Origin: Malaciobacter marinus
Lineage (GTDB): Bacteria; Campylobacterota; Campylobacteria; Campylobacterales; Arcobacteraceae
Direction: 5' to 3'
DNA length: 64,000 nucleotides
NCBI RefSeq assembly: GCF_003544855.1
Contig: NZ_CP032101.1
Coordinates: 558,001-622,000 of the forward strand
Shown here: positions 37,695 to 46,504 of the stretch, piece after piece
How positions within the stretch are numbered: position 1 is the stretch's first letter
Layout of the letters: each line of letters begins with the position of its first letter
Position numbers and translations under genes: made by a program
The notes under the pieces: generated by a model
Told to the model about the DNA's origin: nothing
Databases searched by the model: none
Seen by the model: only the letters and a program-made list of their open reading frames with translations

Positions 37695-39506
37695 ATGCAA
37701 GATGGTACGCAAATTTTAGGTTATTTATCGAAGATATCAATTTTATATGTTGAAGATGATAAATTTACACAAGATGAAGTAAGATATTTTCTTGAAACAA
37801 AAGTTAAGAACTTTTATTGTGCTAATAATGGCCAAGAAGGTTTGGATATTTTTTATAAAGAATCAATTGATGTAATTATTACAGATATACAAATGCCAAT
37901 TCTTACAGGTCTTGAAATGGCAAAAAAAATAAAAGAAGAAAATAGTAGTATTCCCATAATTATAACAACTGCATATAATGACACAAAATATTTATTTGAA
38001 TCAATAAATTTAGGTGTAAGTAATTATATAACTAAGCCTTTAAATTTAAAAGATATGATAGAAACTTTAGCTTCAATTGCAAAATCTATTCTTCTTGAAA
38101 AAGAGAAAGAACAAATACAAAATATTTTAACTCAATATAAAGATATTGTAGATGATCGCTCAATTATCTCAAAAACAGATATAAATGGAAAGATTATATA
38201 TGTGAATAAACCTTTTTTGGAAATATCAGGTTATAAAAAAGAAGAGTTGATTGGTAAACCACATAGTATAATAAGACATCCTGATACAAATAAAGAATTT
38301 TTCTTATCAATGTGGCATTTAATCAAAAATGAAAAAAAATCTTGGCAAGGTGAAGTGAAAAATCAAGCAAAAGATGGAACTGCTTATTATCTTGATATGA
38401 TTATAAAACCAATTTTAGATATTGATGGTAATATTGTTGAGTTTATCTCTTTATCAAATGATATTACTTATTTAACTCAAACTAAAGAGTATTTTAAAAA
38501 ACAAACTGAAAAAAAATCCTTTGATTTAGATTCATCTATAAATATTATAGAACAATATGAAAATGCAATAGATAGAAGTAATATAATTATAAGGTTAGAT
38601 TTAGATAAAAAGATAACTTATGTAAATGATGCTTTTGTTGATTCTTTAGGATATACAAAAGATGAAATAATTGGTTGTGATTACTCTATTTTAAAACAAA
38701 CAAATTTGAAAAAAGAAGAGTATGAAAAAAAGATTGAGGCAATTTTTTCAAAAGATGGATGGAAAGGAAAAATAACAAATGAAAGTAAAGATGGCACTTT
38801 ATTACATTTTGATGTGCATACTTTTCCTTTAAAAGATATAGATGGAAATATTTTTGAATATTTAGGCATTAGACATGAAATTACAGAAATAGTTAATTTG
38901 CATAAAGAAGTTGAAAATACACAAAGAGAGATAATTTATACATTAGGTGATGTGGGAGAATATAGAAGTCAAGAGACAGGACAGCATGTAAGAAGAGTTG
39001 CAGAATATTCAAAACTTTTAGCAAAAAAAGCAAAAATGAGTGATATTGAAATTGATGAAATTTTCACAGCTTCACCAATGCATGATATAGGTAAAGTTGC
39101 TATTCCTGATTCTATTTTAAATAAACCTGGAAAATTAGATGATAAAGAGTGGGAAATAATGAAAACCCATGCACAAATTGGTTATGAAATACTTAAAAGT
39201 TCACAAAGACCAATGTTAAAAGCAGCTGCAATGGTATCATATACTCATCATGAAAAATGGGATGGCAGTGGATACCCTAATGGTTTAAGGGGTGAAGATA
39301 TTCATATTTATGGAAGAATTACTGCAATTGCAGATGTTTTTGATGCACTTGGAAGTGCTAGAACTTATAAAAGAGCTTGGCCTTTAGAAGATATTTTAAA
39401 ACTTTTTAATGAACAAAAAGGTAAACATTTTGATCCAAATCTAATTGATTTATTTATGGATAATTTAGATGAATTTTTAGAAATTAAAGATAGGCTCAAG
39501 GATTAA
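37695..39506 (+). CDS. Receiver-PAS-PAS-HD-GYP cyclic-di-GMP phosphodiesterase
   Basis: This 603-residue cytosolic protein has a receiver (about 14-130: YVEDDKF, ITDIQMPILTG, ITKPLNLKD), two PAS domains (about 150-260 and 290-395), and a C-terminal HD-GYP domain (about 410-595). The last shows the metal HD in MHDIGKVAIPD (near 461), HHEKWDGSGYPNGLRGE and DVFDALGSARTYK. HD-GYP domains hydrolyse cyclic di-GMP. It begins a three-gene signalling operon (2 bp gap to the next gene), whose last member is a Cache-type kinase that probably phosphorylates it. Confidence 0.93.
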   Translation: MQDGTQILGYLSKISILYVEDDKFTQDEVRYFLETKVKNFYCANNGQEGLDIFYKESIDVIITDIQMPILTGLEMAKKIKEENSSIPIIITTAYNDTKYLFESINLGVSNYITKPLNLKDMIETLASIAKSILLEKEKEQIQNILTQYKDIVDDRSIISKTDINGKIIYVNKPFLEISGYKKEELIGKPHSIIRHPDTNKEFFLSMWHLIKNEKKSWQGEVKNQAKDGTAYYLDMIIKPILDIDGNIVEFISLSNDITYLTQTKEYFKKQTEKKSFDLDSSINIIEQYENAIDRSNIIIRLDLDKKITYVNDAFVDSLGYTKDEIIGCDYSILKQTNLKKEEYEKKIEAIFSKDGWKGKITNESKDGTLLHFDVHTFPLKDIDGNIFEYLGIRHEITEIVNLHKEVENTQREIIYTLGDVGEYRSQETGQHVRRVAEYSKLLAKKAKMSDIEIDEIFTASPMHDIGKVAIPDSILNKPGKLDDKEWEIMKTHAQIGYEILKSSQRPMLKAAAMVSYTHHEKWDGSGYPNGLRGEDIHIYGRITAIADVFDALGSARTYKRAWPLEDILKLFNEQKGKHFDPNLIDLFMDNLDEFLEIKDRLKD

Positions 39507-39508
39507 TT

Positions 39509-40393
39509 ATGCATAGTTTTAATAAAGAGACTTTTAAAGATATAACACTTTTATATGTTGAAGATGATGAAATGACATTGGAAGAGATTTCATATTTTTT
39601 AAAAAGATATGTAAAAGAACTCTTTATTGCAAAAGATGGTGTTGAGGGTTTAGAATTATTTAAAAAGAAAAGACCTGATATAGTAATAACTGATATACAA
39701 ATGCCAAAATTAAATGGATTAAATATGGCTGAAAAAATATTTGAAATTGATCCTAGTATTCCTATCGTAATTACAACAGCTCATAGTGAAAGTGATAGTT
39801 TAAGTAAAGCAATTGAGTTAGGAATTGATAAGTATTTATTAAAGCCAATAAATATGCAAGAAATATTAGCGATTATTAAAAAAAGTTTATATTTAGATAC
39901 TTTGGAAAAAAAGAATAATAGTTATGAAGAGTATATACAGTTTATACTAGATTGTAATTCTACCTTTATGTTTGTAATGAATTCAAATAATGTTGAGTAT
40001 GCAAATAAAAGCTTACTAGATTTGATGGGATTTGAAAACTTAGATACTTTTAATGAACAAATAAACAAGTGTAAAAATTTATTTGATATTGAAGAATTAA
40101 AAGCAAATGAAAACTGGATTGATTATGTTATTGCAAATAAACAAAGAAGACATTTAGTTAGACTTAAAAGTAGTAAATGTGAAAAGCTATTTAAAAGAGA
40201 GTTTTATGTTAGCTATAAATATTTTGAAAAAATGAATAAAAGTGTTTTTGTTTTTGTAGATAAAAATGAAGAGAAGTTAGACGAAATTCATAATATAAGT
40301 AATAAGTTAGTAAATGATTTAAATAATGGTATTTCAAATGAAAATTTGATGAATGAATTAAAAAGTATTTTAAATATTTCTAGTAGAAATTAA
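39509..40393 (+). CDS. Receiver-PAS-like response regulator without known output
   Basis: This 294-residue protein has a clear receiver (about 12-130: YVEDDEMT, ITDIQMPKLNG, LLKPINMQE). A degenerate PAS-like domain follows (about 140-245; FMFVMNSNNVEYANKSLLDLMGF), with a short helical tail. There is no DNA-binding, GGDEF or kinase domain. It sits between the HD-GYP protein and the Cache kinase with 1-2 bp gaps. It may compete for phosphate or bind the kinase or phosphodiesterase; this is inference. Confidence 0.82.
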   Translation: MHSFNKETFKDITLLYVEDDEMTLEEISYFLKRYVKELFIAKDGVEGLELFKKKRPDIVITDIQMPKLNGLNMAEKIFEIDPSIPIVITTAHSESDSLSKAIELGIDKYLLKPINMQEILAIIKKSLYLDTLEKKNNSYEEYIQFILDCNSTFMFVMNSNNVEYANKSLLDLMGFENLDTFNEQINKCKNLFDIEELKANENWIDYVIANKQRRHLVRLKSSKCEKLFKREFYVSYKYFEKMNKSVFVFVDKNEEKLDEIHNISNKLVNDLNNGISNENLMNELKSILNISSRN

Positions 40394-40394
40394 T

Positions 40395-42980
40395 ATGAAG
40401 AATTTAAGTATAAAAATAAAATTAATATTGCTTTTTATAATAATAAAAGTAGTACCTTTACTTCTTATTTCTTATATAGCTTTTATAGGAATTATAAAAC
40501 TTGATAAATATTTTTCAAGTAGTACTAAAGAGCTTTTTTTAGAAAATAAACAAATAATTTCAAATACTGCAAATAAAGCAATTAGTGATAGTATTGAAAT
40601 GCTTGATAAAAAATCACAACAATCTATAGAAAGGCTATCTTTTGAAATAGCAAAAAATGTAGCAAGCTTTTTATATCAAAGAGATGAAGATATTTTATTT
40701 CTTTCAAAAATTAAACTAGACCAAAAAGTATTAAGTGATTTTTATAAAAGTAAACAAAGAGAGATAATAGTACATGGAGAATACTATTATGATGAGAAAA
40801 GTAAAAGATGGGAATCAAGTAAGAGAATAAAAAGTATAAAAAGACAACAAAGAAAAGCCCAATTAAAAGATAATGAAAAAGAGTTTAATTATACAGACCC
40901 AAAAGAGTTAAAAAGAGTAAAAATACCAATCTATAAAGAAGTTAGCTACTTTGATATAAATGGAAAAGAGATATATAAAATATCACAAATAAATAAACAG
41001 TTGTTAGATATATCAAAAAAGAAAAATACATATGTAAACTCAGAAGAGTATTTTAAAAAAATAGAAGAGTTAAAAAAAGGGCAAATATATGTAAGTGATG
41101 TAATAGGGCAAAGTGTAAAAACAAATATAATAGGAACCTTTACAAAAAAGAAAGCAAAAGAAGCGAATATAGAATTTGAACCTCAAAATCATGGATATGC
41201 AGGGAAAGAGAATCCAAAAGGGAAGAAGTTTGAGGGAATAATAAGGTTTGTAACACCAGTATATAAAAAAGATAAAAAAGTAGGATATGTAAGTTTAGCA
41301 TTAGATCATGAACATATAATGCAATTTACAGATACAGTAAATCCAGTGGATAAAAATCCAATACAAGATATAGCAGATGCAAGTGTAGGGAATTATGCAT
41401 TTATGTGGGATTATGAGGGAAAGAATATTTCTCATCCAAGGGATTATTCAATAGTAGGGTATGATCCAAAGACAGGGAAACAAGCAATGCCATGGTTAAG
41501 TGAAGATGTGGCAAAGAAATATTATGCATCAAAAAAAGATATAAATGAATTTTTAAAAGATTATCCAAAGTTTGAAGAACAAAGTTTAAATAAAAAGCCA
41601 AATATGAAGCAGTTAATAAAAGATGGCAATGTAAATATAGATTGTAGATATTTAAACTTTGCACCACAATGTCAAGGTTGGATGCAGTTAACACAAAATG
41701 GAGGATATGGATCATTTATAATACATTGGAGTAATATATGGAAGCTATCAACAGCAGCAGCAATACCATACTATACAGGTAAGTATGCCAATAGTAAAAG
41801 AGGATTTGGTTTTGTAAGTATTACTGCAAATGTTGATGAATTTCATGCAGCTGCAAATAAAACGAAAGAGAAAATTAATGTTATTTTAGATTCTCAAACA
41901 AAAAATATGAATAAAAGTTTAGAAAAAAATAGAAATGAAATTGAAAAACTTATAATGCAAATGTTAAACGATATTACTATTTCTACAGTTGTAATGATTG
42001 TTTTAGTAATGATAATTGCCTTATTGATGTCAAGTTATATTAGTAAAAAAATCGAAAATATTTTATTAGGAACTAGAAAGTTTTCAAATAATGAGTTTAA
42101 TTATAGGTTGAAAATAACATCAAATGATGAAATAGGTCAACTTGAAAACTCTTTTAATGAAATGGCAAATAAAATAGAAACATTAGTAAAAACACAAAAT
42201 GATTTAAATAAAAGTTTAGAACAAAAAGTAGAAGAAGAGATAGAGAAACAAAGAAAACAAGAGCAGTTATTGATACAACAAAGTAAATTAGCAGCAATGG
42301 GAGAGATGATAGGAAATATAGCCCATCAATGGAGACAACCACTAAATGCATTGGGATTAGTAATGCAAAATATGCAGTTTGCATATAGTATGGGTGATTT
42401 GGATGATAAGTTTATGGAAAGAAGTATAAAAAAGACAAATATATTAACATCAAGTATGTCAAAAACAATAGATGATTTTAGAAACTTTTTTAAACCAAAT
42501 AAAACAAAAGAGTATTTTGAGATAAATAAAACAGTAAAAAAAGCGATATATTTAATAGAATCAACATTTGAACATAGCTATATAGAAATAGAAAAAGAGT
42601 TTAGCAAAGAAGATATAGAAGTATATGGATATACAAATGAGTTTTCACAAAGTATATTAAATATATTATCAAATGCAAAAGATGCATTAATAGAAAAAAA
42701 AGTAGAAGATGCAAAGGTAAAAATAAGAGTCTATAAAGATAAAAATAGTGCAATAGTACAAATAGAAGATAATGCAAAAGGCATAAGTGAAGATATAAAA
42801 GATAAAATATTTGAGCCATATTTTACAACAAAAGAAGAGGGAAAAGGAACAGGTATAGGATTATATATGACAAAAACCATTATTGAAAATAGTATGGGTG
42901 GTGCTATTATTGTAGAAAACATTAATCTTGGTGCTTGTTTTACTATTTGTGTGCCTCTTTTGATAAAAGAAAAGATATAA
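40395..42980 (+). CDS. Cache-domain sensor histidine kinase with HAMP
   Basis: This 861-residue kinase has a transmembrane helix at about 8-30 and an unusually large periplasmic sensor (about 35-520) with Cache-type elements such as GIIRFVTPVYKKDKKVGYVSLALDHEHI. A second helix lies at about 528-553, then HAMP, a coiled coil, HisKA with AHQWRQPLNALG (His near 643), and an ATPase domain (SILNILSNAKDALIE, EDNAKGIS, GTGIGLYMTKTI). The sensor (about 40740-41800) and the kinase core (about 42180-42870) use distinctly A-ending codons, while the HAMP region between them does not. It probably feeds the two receivers upstream. Confidence 0.92.
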   Translation: MKNLSIKIKLILLFIIIKVVPLLLISYIAFIGIIKLDKYFSSSTKELFLENKQIISNTANKAISDSIEMLDKKSQQSIERLSFEIAKNVASFLYQRDEDILFLSKIKLDQKVLSDFYKSKQREIIVHGEYYYDEKSKRWESSKRIKSIKRQQRKAQLKDNEKEFNYTDPKELKRVKIPIYKEVSYFDINGKEIYKISQINKQLLDISKKKNTYVNSEEYFKKIEELKKGQIYVSDVIGQSVKTNIIGTFTKKKAKEANIEFEPQNHGYAGKENPKGKKFEGIIRFVTPVYKKDKKVGYVSLALDHEHIMQFTDTVNPVDKNPIQDIADASVGNYAFMWDYEGKNISHPRDYSIVGYDPKTGKQAMPWLSEDVAKKYYASKKDINEFLKDYPKFEEQSLNKKPNMKQLIKDGNVNIDCRYLNFAPQCQGWMQLTQNGGYGSFIIHWSNIWKLSTAAAIPYYTGKYANSKRGFGFVSITANVDEFHAAANKTKEKINVILDSQTKNMNKSLEKNRNEIEKLIMQMLNDITISTVVMIVLVMIIALLMSSYISKKIENILLGTRKFSNNEFNYRLKITSNDEIGQLENSFNEMANKIETLVKTQNDLNKSLEQKVEEEIEKQRKQEQLLIQQSKLAAMGEMIGNIAHQWRQPLNALGLVMQNMQFAYSMGDLDDKFMERSIKKTNILTSSMSKTIDDFRNFFKPNKTKEYFEINKTVKKAIYLIESTFEHSYIEIEKEFSKEDIEVYGYTNEFSQSILNILSNAKDALIEKKVEDAKVKIRVYKDKNSAIVQIEDNAKGISEDIKDKIFEPYFTTKEEGKGTGIGLYMTKTIIENSMGGAIIVENINLGACFTICVPLLIKEKI

Positions 42981-43051: not shown

Positions 43052-43075
43052 TTGTCAAATTTATGGGAGAGTACA

Positions 43076-43153
43076 ATGGAAATATTCGATTTTTATAATA
43101 ATCAATTCATCAAAAGTGTTAACACTCTTCTTCTGCTTTCAAAATCACTCTAA
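43076..43153 (+). CDS. leuA leader peptide (leucine attenuator)
   Basis: A 25-codon open reading frame starts with ATG after GGGAGA, about 25 bp downstream of a consensus promoter. Its second half reads NTLLLLSKSL. The four consecutive leucines at codons 18-21 are CTT CTT CTG CTT and the last codon is CTC. CTG and CTC are rare in this AT-rich genome, where TTA dominates, as expected if ribosome speed at these codons reports leucyl-tRNA charge. It lies 99 bp upstream of leuA, the first enzyme of leucine synthesis. I infer an attenuation leader; no homologous leader is known to me. Confidence 0.8.
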   Translation: MEIFDFYNNQFIKSVNTLLLLSKSL

Positions 43154-43252
43154 TAATTACACACAATAAATCAAAAAACAAATCAAGAATATAGTTTTTT
43201 TCTTTTAAAGAAAAATGGATATAATTAAGATACTTTTAAAAAGGTAAAAATC
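43154..43252 (+). promoter_or_regulatory. Leader region between the leucine peptide and leuA
   Basis: No GC-rich terminator hairpin is visible here, unlike classical attenuators. From 43121 to 43190 the plus strand has 16 C and only 2 G, a C-rich/G-poor bias that resembles a Rho-utilisation site. A T7 run occurs at 43195-43201 and ACTTTTAAAAAGGT could weakly hide the leuA ribosome-binding site. A second TATAAT at 43220-43225 might be an internal promoter but has no good -35. Mechanism is inference. Confidence 0.45.
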
Positions 43253-44806
43253 ATGGATAATAATAAAATAGTTGTATTTGATACAACATTAAGGGATGGG
43301 GAGCAAAGTCCTGGGTGTTCTATGAACACAGAAGAGAAGATTAAAGTTGCTAAGCAATTAGAAAAATTAGGTGTTGATGTAATTGAAGCAGGTTTTGCAG
43401 CTGCTAGTCCAGGGGACTTTGATGCTGTTAGTAGAATTGCTGAACAAGTTGAAAAGTCTTCAATCTGTTCTTTAAGTAGAGCTGTTGAAAATGATATTAA
43501 ACAAGCTGCTTTAGCAGTACAAAAAGCAAAAATGCATAGAATTCATACATTTATTGCAACTTCTCCTATTCATATGAAATATAAATTGAAAATGAGTGAA
43601 GAAGAAGTAATAAAAAGAGCAGTATATGCAGTTGAATATGCAAGAACTTTTGTTGATGATGTTGAGTTTTCTTTAGAAGATGCAGGAAGAAGTGAAATAT
43701 CTTTTATGAAAGAGGTAATGGATGCAGTAATTGCTGCTGGAGCTACAACTATTAATTTACCTGATACTGTTGGATATAGATTACCAACAGAATTGGGAGC
43801 AATGGTTAAAGAGTTATCTGATTTTGCAGCAAATAGAGCAATAATTTCTGTTCATAATCACAATGACTTAGGTTTAGCAACAGCAAATACTTTAGCAGCT
43901 GTAACAAATGGTGCTAGACAAATTGAAGTAACAATGAATGGCTTAGGAGAAAGAGCTGGTAATTCTGCTTTAGAAGAATCAGTTATGGCTATTAAAACAA
44001 GACGTGATGCTTTTAAGGATTTATATACAAGTATAAATACAAAAGAGATTTATGCAACTTCAAGATTAGTCGCAACTATTACAGGTGTTGAGCCACAACA
44101 AAATAAAGCAATTGTTGGTAAAAATGCATTTGCTCATGAAAGTGGAATTCACCAAGATGGTGTATTGAAACATCAAGAAACATATGAGATTATGAGACCT
44201 GAAGATGTTGGTGTTATTAAAGATTCTACTTTAATTTTAGGAAAACATTCTGGGCGTGCTGCATTTAAAGACAAAATAACTAACTTAGGTTTTGATACAG
44301 TAACAAGTGAAGAATTAAATTCAGCCTTTGAAAAATTTAAAATTTTAGCAGATAAGAAAAAAGAAGTAACTGATGATGACATAAGAATGTTAATTACTGA
44401 TGAGTCATTGAATCAAGATAAAATTTATGAGTTAGTTGGATTACAAATTTCTGACTGTTCAAACGGAGTGCCAACAGCAGCTGTTTCTATTAAACATAAT
44501 GATGAAATTTTAACTGATGCAAATATTGGTAATGGAACAATGGATGCAATATTCAAAACAATTGATAGACTTACAGGATATAGCGGGGAGTTACAAAGTT
44601 ATAATGTAATTTCTGTTACAGAAGGTAAAGATGCCTTAGCAAAAGTTACAACAAGAGTAGTTTTTGATGAAAGCTCTCCATCATTTGTGGGACATGGCTT
44701 AAGTGTTGATACAATGCTTGCAACGGCAAATGCATATGTTAGTGCATTAAACTCATATCTTTCACAAAAAGAAAGACTTGCAAAAAATAGTGAACATCAA
44801 GTATAA
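43253..44806 (+). CDS. leuA: 2-isopropylmalate synthase
   Basis: This 517-residue enzyme condenses acetyl-CoA with 2-oxoisovalerate, the committed step of leucine synthesis. The N-terminal TIM barrel has [30 protein letters not shown] and [13 protein letters not shown]. The C-terminal LeuA dimer domain (about 390-510), where leucine binds for feedback inhibition, is present ([32 protein letters not shown]). Expression is probably controlled by the leader peptide upstream. No leuB, leuC or leuD follows. Confidence 0.96.
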
Positions 44807-44902: not shown

Positions 44903-46504
44903 ATGCTAACAGTTATAGTAACTTCTCTTTTTTTAGCTTTAACTATAAACATACTTTTAAAAAAAATTAATCTTCCTACCATTATTGGTTATATATTTAC
45001 AGGTACAATTATCGCTTATGGTTTCAATCTTCATGATGCTGTTAATAATCATACATTAAAAGAGATTGCAGAGTTTGGTGTAGTATTTTTAATGTTTACA
45101 ATAGGACTAGAATTTTCACTTAGTCATTTAAAAAAGATGAAAAATGAAGTATTTGTAGCAGGTACATTGCAAATTTTGATTACGGCTGTAATTGTTTTTT
45201 CTATTAGTTATTTTTTATTGGGTATTGAAAAAAATGTTTCATTTATCTTATCTTTAGCTATTGCTTTATCTTCAACAGCAATAGTTTTAAAAACTTTTAA
45301 TGAAACTGGTGAAATAAATAGACGATATGGACAAAGAAGTTTAGGTATTTTGATTATGCAAGATATAGCAGTAATACCTATTTTATTAACAATTGGATTT
45401 ATGAGCAGCGCATCAAATAGTTCTGTAACAGATGTTTTAGGCGAGATGGTTTTACATGCTGCGATGTTATTAGCACTTATGGTAATTATTGGAAAATATT
45501 TACTTGAACCTTTTTTTAAAGCAATAACTAAAACAAACTCAGATGAACTTTTTGTTGGTACAATACTATTTTTAGCAATTGGTGCTTCACTTTTAGCTCA
45601 TGAATTAGGCTTTTCATATTCTCTTGGAGCTTTTATAGCAGGTATGTTAATTGCTGAAACTAGATATAAACACCAAGCAGAAGCTGATTTGGTGCCTTTT
45701 AGAGATTTGTTATTAGGTATCTTCTTTGTAACTGTTGGAATGCAGTTAAAGTTTGATATTATTTCTTTATATATTCATATAATTTTAGCTTTATTAGTTT
45801 CTGTGATGATTTTAAAATTTGTAATCATTTATGCTATTATTAGGATAAATGAAAATAAACGTGTAAGTATGAAAACAGCACTTAGTTTAGTTCAAGTTGG
45901 GGAATTTTCACTTGCATTACTTGAACTTGCAAGAACAGGTGGCTTAGTCCCAGCTCCATATGGCCAAATAATGATTGTAACTATTGTATTATCAATGATT
46001 ATTACTCCAATAATTTTAAAAAATCTTACTTTTATTACGGATAAATTTAATCAAGAAGAAGAACCAAATGTTAATCAAGATTTGACTAGTTCTATATTAT
46101 CAAATCATACTGTTATTTTAGGTTTAGGTGAGTTTGGAAGAAATATAGCAGATGATTTGTCAGCTTCTTCTGAAAAATATATAGCAATTGAAAATAACAT
46201 TGAAAGTTTTTATAAGTCAATAAATAGTGGATATAATGTAGTTTTTGGAAATGCCACAAATAAAGATTTATTAAGAACTGTAAATTTAAAAGCAGCAAAA
46301 TATGTAATTGTTGCAATAGATAATCCAAAAAAATTATATCAAGTATGTGATACAATTCAACAAGTTGTACCAATAGAAAAAATTATTGTAAAAATACATA
46401 CAAAAAAAGAATCAGATATAATAAATGAATTTAATATTTCTAATGTATTTGTTGAAAATAGAATAACTAGTACAAAAATTACTGAATTAATTATAAATGA
46501 GTGA
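44903..46504 (+). CDS. Kef/CPA2-type cation:proton antiporter with TrkA-N domain
   Basis: This 533-residue inner-membrane protein has about 12 helices (residues 1-380) of the Na+/H+ exchanger superfamily (GVVFLMFTIGLEFS, ALSSTAIVLKT, SYSLGAFIAGMLIAET). A cytosolic TrkA-N nucleotide-binding domain follows (about 400-510; VILGLGEFGRNIADDL, FGNATNKDLLRTVN). It resembles KefB/YbaL carriers, which export K+ or exchange cations for protons. No separate KefF/G ancillary subunit is adjacent. Confidence 0.9.
   Translation: MLTVIVTSLFLALTINILLKKINLPTIIGYIFTGTIIAYGFNLHDAVNNHTLKEIAEFGVVFLMFTIGLEFSLSHLKKMKNEVFVAGTLQILITAVIVFSISYFLLGIEKNVSFILSLAIALSSTAIVLKTFNETGEINRRYGQRSLGILIMQDIAVIPILLTIGFMSSASNSSVTDVLGEMVLHAAMLLALMVIIGKYLLEPFFKAITKTNSDELFVGTILFLAIGASLLAHELGFSYSLGAFIAGMLIAETRYKHQAEADLVPFRDLLLGIFFVTVGMQLKFDIISLYIHIILALLVSVMILKFVIIYAIIRINENKRVSMKTALSLVQVGEFSLALLELARTGGLVPAPYGQIMIVTIVLSMIITPIILKNLTFITDKFNQEEEPNVNQDLTSSILSNHTVILGLGEFGRNIADDLSASSEKYIAIENNIESFYKSINSGYNVVFGNATNKDLLRTVNLKAAKYVIVAIDNPKKLYQVCDTIQQVVPIEKIIVKIHTKKESDIINEFNISNVFVENRITSTKITELIINE

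Follow-up and report, generated by a model that had tools for sequence, protein, structure and literature searches.

A conserved leucine-codon leader peptide, LeuL, upstream of leuA in Malaciobacter marinus and its predicted control anatomy in Arcobacteraceae

In a 64,000-nucleotide stretch of the genome of Malaciobacter marinus (contig NZ_CP032101.1, positions 558,001 to 622,000; hereafter the window), the gene for 2-isopropylmalate synthase, leuA, is preceded by a 25-codon open reading frame (ORF) rich in leucine codons, leuL. On sequence evidence, leuL is a real and conserved member of the known LeuL kind of leader, newly resolved here for Arcobacteraceae and with an unusual predicted control anatomy. 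It is almost certainly the LeuL leader that was proposed for the phylum in 2013, and it very probably encodes a translated leader peptide that ties the expression of leuA to the supply of charged leucyl-tRNA. Positions below are those of the window, and all features lie on its forward strand.

leuL (43076..43153) begins with ATG at 43076, ends with TAA at 43151-43153 and encodes the peptide MEIFDFYNNQFIKSVNTLLLLSKSL. A Shine-Dalgarno (SD) sequence, GGGAGAGT, is located at 43065..43072 (consensus in the alignment, GGAGAGT), and the stop codon is separated by 99 nt from the start of the ORF 43253..44806, which we take to be leuA from the original prediction and general knowledge, and which has ortholog-level matches (62-94% identity) in most genomes of the family. 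leuL has the form by which LeuL is recognized, an SD-preceded ORF of 20-35 amino acids. Its leucine control codons, CTT CTT CTG CTT, occupy 43127..43138, and its end reads CTC TAA (43148..43153), with CTC at 43148-43150 as the last sense codon. The 25-codon frame with a proper ribosome-binding site, the four consecutive CTN codons and the terminal CTC were all found as originally predicted.

Based on the 29 long ORFs of the window, we computed the usage of leucine codons as TTA 61%, CTT 22%, TTG 8.5%, CTA 8%, CTC 0.6% and CTG 0.3%. The leucine codons of leuL (CTT, CTT, CTG, CTT and CTC) are of the CTN type instead of the genome-preferred TTA. The claim that these are codons avoided by the genome applies to CTC and CTG, but not to CTT, which is the second commonest leucine codon.

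Conservation of the frame and of the leucine run in relatives had been named as a check. We took the region 5' of leuA in some 100 Arcobacteraceae and in more distant Campylobacterota and identified a LeuL-like frame in 182 of 231 loci. These frames represent 150 distinct ORFs, 69 of the Arcobacteraceae type and 81 from other Campylobacterota in altered form. The ORF picker was strict, so that these counts are lower bounds, and at some loci (e.g., L163, L166-L168, L175, L177 and L178) it recognized no leader. Both the frame and the leucine run were kept upstream of leuA in the 69 distinct Arcobacteraceae variants, which follow the pattern M-K-I-F-..-FIKSVN-(S/T)-LLLL-...-L. CTN codons were retained in the relatives; the last sense codon was CTC in all 63 distinct variants of 25 amino acids and in 66 of the 69 Arcobacteraceae variants. 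In the segment FIKSVNT (43106..43126), codons 11-16 were constant as amino acids and variable at third positions (ATC/ATA/ATT, GTT/GTA, AAC/AAT), which suggests selection on the peptide. In the window genome, this part of leuL also contains a perfect 12-bp palindrome, AGTGTTAACACT, at 43115-43126; it is probably incidental, because relatives whose leuL has GTA or TCT codons at these positions lack it.

The 81 leaders from outside Arcobacteraceae have unrelated N-terminal parts but share the leucine run, ending, for example, in ..IFTKDTSLLLLLAL or ..LPKIEIKNxLL. Among 30 distinct leaders of the latter type, LPKIE and the following N were invariant as amino acids while synonymous positions varied, and the leucine codons after N were mostly CTC, then CTG or CTA. 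The segment LPKIEIKN ahead of the leucine run is common to leaders of several families (e.g., L083, L090, L253 and L258) and, as far as its sequence indicates, resembles a nascent-peptide signal.

Such a leader had been thought to be undescribed in this group. At the level of the phylum this is incorrect: a 2013 study proposed LeuL for Campylobacter jejuni and for "most Epsilonproteobacterial genomes" (PMC3847290), and in 2025 retapamulin ribosome profiling detected where its translation starts in C. jejuni (PMC11955535). Three Arcobacter species appear among the genomes compared in the earlier paper. The proposed coupling of leu gene expression to charged tRNA-Leu is the same as that considered here. 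The two cases differ in that C. jejuni has leuABCD whereas in the window the next gene after leuA (44903-46504) is no obvious leu gene, and in that M. marinus shows another peptide sequence, no recognizable terminator, and a second -10 box with a palindrome beside leuA. The present analysis adds a well-supported collection of LeuL leaders that spans the family; their small size makes it unlikely that they are annotated. The complementarity between SD and leucine codons described below, the conservation of the residues preceding the leucine run, the absence of a terminator in Arcobacteraceae and the second TATAAT with its palindrome are new here as computational results.

In most lineages, the SD and the leucine run of one and the same leader are complementary. 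For leuL of the window, GGGAGAGU would pair with ACUCUUCU (two G-U pairs), so that the SD doubles as the 5' arm of a predicted SD-Leu helix whose 3' arm, ACTCTTCT (43124..43131), extends into the leucine run; the helix lies within the minimum free energy fold. Using 46 sequence clusters, we compared the SD-Leu pairs of the same leader with swapped pairs, and the former were more stable (mean -11.4 versus -10.3 kcal/mol; permutation P 0.0002, an optimistic value because the clusters are phylogenetically related). When synonymous codons were permuted within each leader, none of 300 trials reached the observed mean. As a control, we examined the N-terminal portions of these ORFs, which tended in the opposite direction. 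Several leaders carry changed pairs of SD and leucine run, such as AGGAGGATAGA/TCTATCCTCCT (L218), AGGAGCA/TGCTCCT (L100) and AAGGAGGTTG/CAACCTTCT (L170), and in L218, L062, L170 and L100 the pairing extends with covariation beyond the SD core, which is hard to explain otherwise. Among Arcobacteraceae alone, the pairing was moderately better than with random synonymous usage (z -2.3). If functional, the SD-Leu complementarity would provide a simple means for each leader RNA to fire about once.

How termination might be brought about in Arcobacteraceae is suggested by the spacer after leuL. The 50 nt at 43154..43203 are A-rich, free of a terminator and contain 7 C and 2 G, which makes them a candidate Rho loading region. 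C exceeded G in the corresponding spacers of 65 of the 69 Arcobacteraceae variants, at only about 6 C per 50 nt, and rho is encoded in the window genome. Since an intrinsic terminator is absent here, we infer that Rho is the most likely terminator for leuL, and Rho-type termination is the reading that we prefer for Arcobacteraceae.

The control of leuA may then operate as follows, a scheme that we offer tentatively and give somewhat less than an even chance in its details. When leucine is plentiful, the ribosome would clear the leader, and the SD-Leu helix would shut behind it and block reloading; the ribosome-free C-over-G spacer would let transcription stop, most likely via Rho. When leucine is short, a ribosome stalled on the CTN codons would hold the helix open and cover the RNA, and transcription would proceed into leuA. 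A second promoter beside leuA, P2, probably supplies a basal, leader-independent level.

Short upstream ORFs that gate Rho-dependent termination are known from tnaC and MgtL. The uORF of TopAI-YjhQ is reported as another example (PMC12121999). leuL would share with these systems a short upstream ORF, a C-over-G spacer and the lack of an intrinsic terminator; it would differ in its signal, the supply of leucyl-tRNA, and its dependence on Rho is predicted from these features.

Several results weigh against the proposed scheme. No intrinsic terminator was found between leuL and leuA, either in the window by a generic scan or in any of the 69 Arcobacteraceae variants by a dedicated scan for a hairpin plus U-tract, which leaves the "terminate or read through" model from the literature without such a terminator to rely on in this family; the part assigned to Rho is itself only inferred. 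Among Arcobacteraceae alone, the SD-Leu pairing was neutral when codon order was permuted (z 0.2), and shared ancestry inflates the significance of the phylum-wide comparison. Whole leaders folded no better than shuffled sequences (z -0.28 and 0.41), and therefore we claim no stable global structure; nor did we find a competing antiterminator partner for the SD-Leu helix. Finally, P2 could render leuA largely independent of leuL.

It is unlikely that leuL works as a textbook attenuator, in which the stalled ribosome would decide whether an antiterminator or an intrinsic terminator forms ahead of leuA. Nine leaders of other lineages, some of them Sulfurovum-like, do have a hairpin with a U-tract at a fixed 21-28 nt before leuA (-4.2 kcal/mol or better), and leuL RNA of C. 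jejuni is reported to end shortly past the stop codon (PMC3847290). The scans of Arcobacteraceae described above speak against such a device in this family. An AT hairpin before leuA was considered as a terminator and rejected, because its T-tract lies on the 5' side and no U-tract follows 3' of the hairpin. Sulfurovum-like loci (L064, L070, L075, L099, L104, L114 and L118) contain a different inverted repeat, CTAATTAACC...GGTAnAATTAG, with compensatory changes (ACC/GGT, ACCC/GGGT and ATCC/GGAT), at about the same position between leuL and leuA.

The proposal of an attenuation leader thus stood in part: there is a leucine leader peptide with conserved frame and leucine run, but no intrinsic terminator was found between leuL and leuA, and a second conserved promoter-like element lies there. 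Of the features of a classical attenuator, control codons for the pathway product are present in a presumably translated leader, and an intrinsic terminator is not. The attenuator of the enterobacterial leu operon, the Leu leader of Rfam, likewise precedes leuA with a translated leader that carries consecutive leucine codons. leuL differs from it in that no terminator/antiterminator pair was found and in that its control codons are predicted to pair with the SD of leuL itself. In a search of the leuL region against Rfam, only chance-level matches were obtained, and there was no match to the Leu leader up to an E value of 10.

A similarly unlikely explanation is that leuA is transcribed mainly from P2 under a DNA-binding regulator, and that leuL either contributes a minor input of its own or encodes a small protein with a function. 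The -10-like box of P2, TATAAT, is located at 43220..43225, 27 nt before leuA; an exact TATAAT was present in 68 of the 69 Arcobacteraceae variants, in nearly all of them 24-29 nt from leuA. Directly before it, at 43197..43215, there is an AT-rich palindrome, TTTTTCTTT-T-AAAGAAAAA, conserved with compensatory changes in relatives (for instance TCTTTTTTT..AAAAAAAGA, TATTTTTT..AAAAAATA and ATCAATTTT..AAAATTGAT). The strict (core) pattern of the palindrome was detected in 12 of 61 genomes of the family, in one copy each and always upstream of leuA. Palindrome and TATAAT are most simply read as a putative second promoter with an operator-like palindrome, which may also have a role in the RNA. This arrangement speaks for a regulated P2, and the conservation as amino acids of FIKSVN in Arcobacteraceae and of LPKIEIKN elsewhere would suit a small protein. 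However, we identified no regulator, and the leucine run with its biased codon choice recurs before leuA behind unrelated N-termini, a feature not predicted by a protein function.

Control of leuA by leuL after transcription, at translation start or mRNA stability and on mRNA from P1 (the promoter of leuL), P2 or both, appears quite improbable. It would account for the lack of a terminator in the 69 Arcobacteraceae variants and for the conserved AT-rich hairpin just 5' of the leuA ribosome-binding site, but we found no conserved structure that pairs with this site, and the gap of about 100 nt between leuL and leuA is too long for simple translational coupling. That leuL is a chance ORF is practically out of the question: when the 272-nt intergenic region was dinucleotide-shuffled 20,000 times, 3.6% of the shuffles had an SD-preceded ATG ORF of 14-40 codons, but only 0.005% had one that also contained LLLL, and the conservation of leuL within the family and beyond has already refuted this explanation. 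Searched across the genome, the pattern of SD, ATG and four CTN codons gave 4 matches, among which leuL was the one recognized as a leader.

Returning to LeuL as a leucyl-tRNA-dependent leader, one may go further and regard LeuL of Campylobacterota as a distinct amino-acid leader, a generalization that we consider possible but doubtful. Its regulatory codons would double as an anti-SD for its own start, making the leader self-closing, and the residues before the leucine run would act as a nascent-peptide signal; in Arcobacteraceae, with no intrinsic terminator, control would be exerted via Rho, the palindromic second promoter at leuA, or both.

The promoter ahead of leuL, P1 (43023..43051), is by its sequence a strong sigma-70 promoter of the form TTGACA-N17-TATAAT that matches the consensus at 12 of 12 positions, in agreement with the original prediction. 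TTGACA and a TATA box were found in 67 of the 69 distinct Arcobacteraceae variants. The two exceptions, L006 and L007, belong to the window's own genus and have retained leuL while losing the TTGACA promoter. The 2.9-Mb genome contains 28 exact TTGACA-17-TATAAT sites, whereas the reversed pattern, taken as a control, occurs 8 times. Of the 28, six are one identical sequence, and the copy that we checked precedes a 16S rRNA motif; judged from these matches, P1 is of a promoter class predicted to drive rRNA as well in this genome.

Just upstream of leuL, at 37695-42980, three genes follow one another in a single orientation. Judged by eye, they encode two response-regulator-type proteins, one of which has PAS-like and HD-GYP-like regions, and one large sensor histidine kinase.
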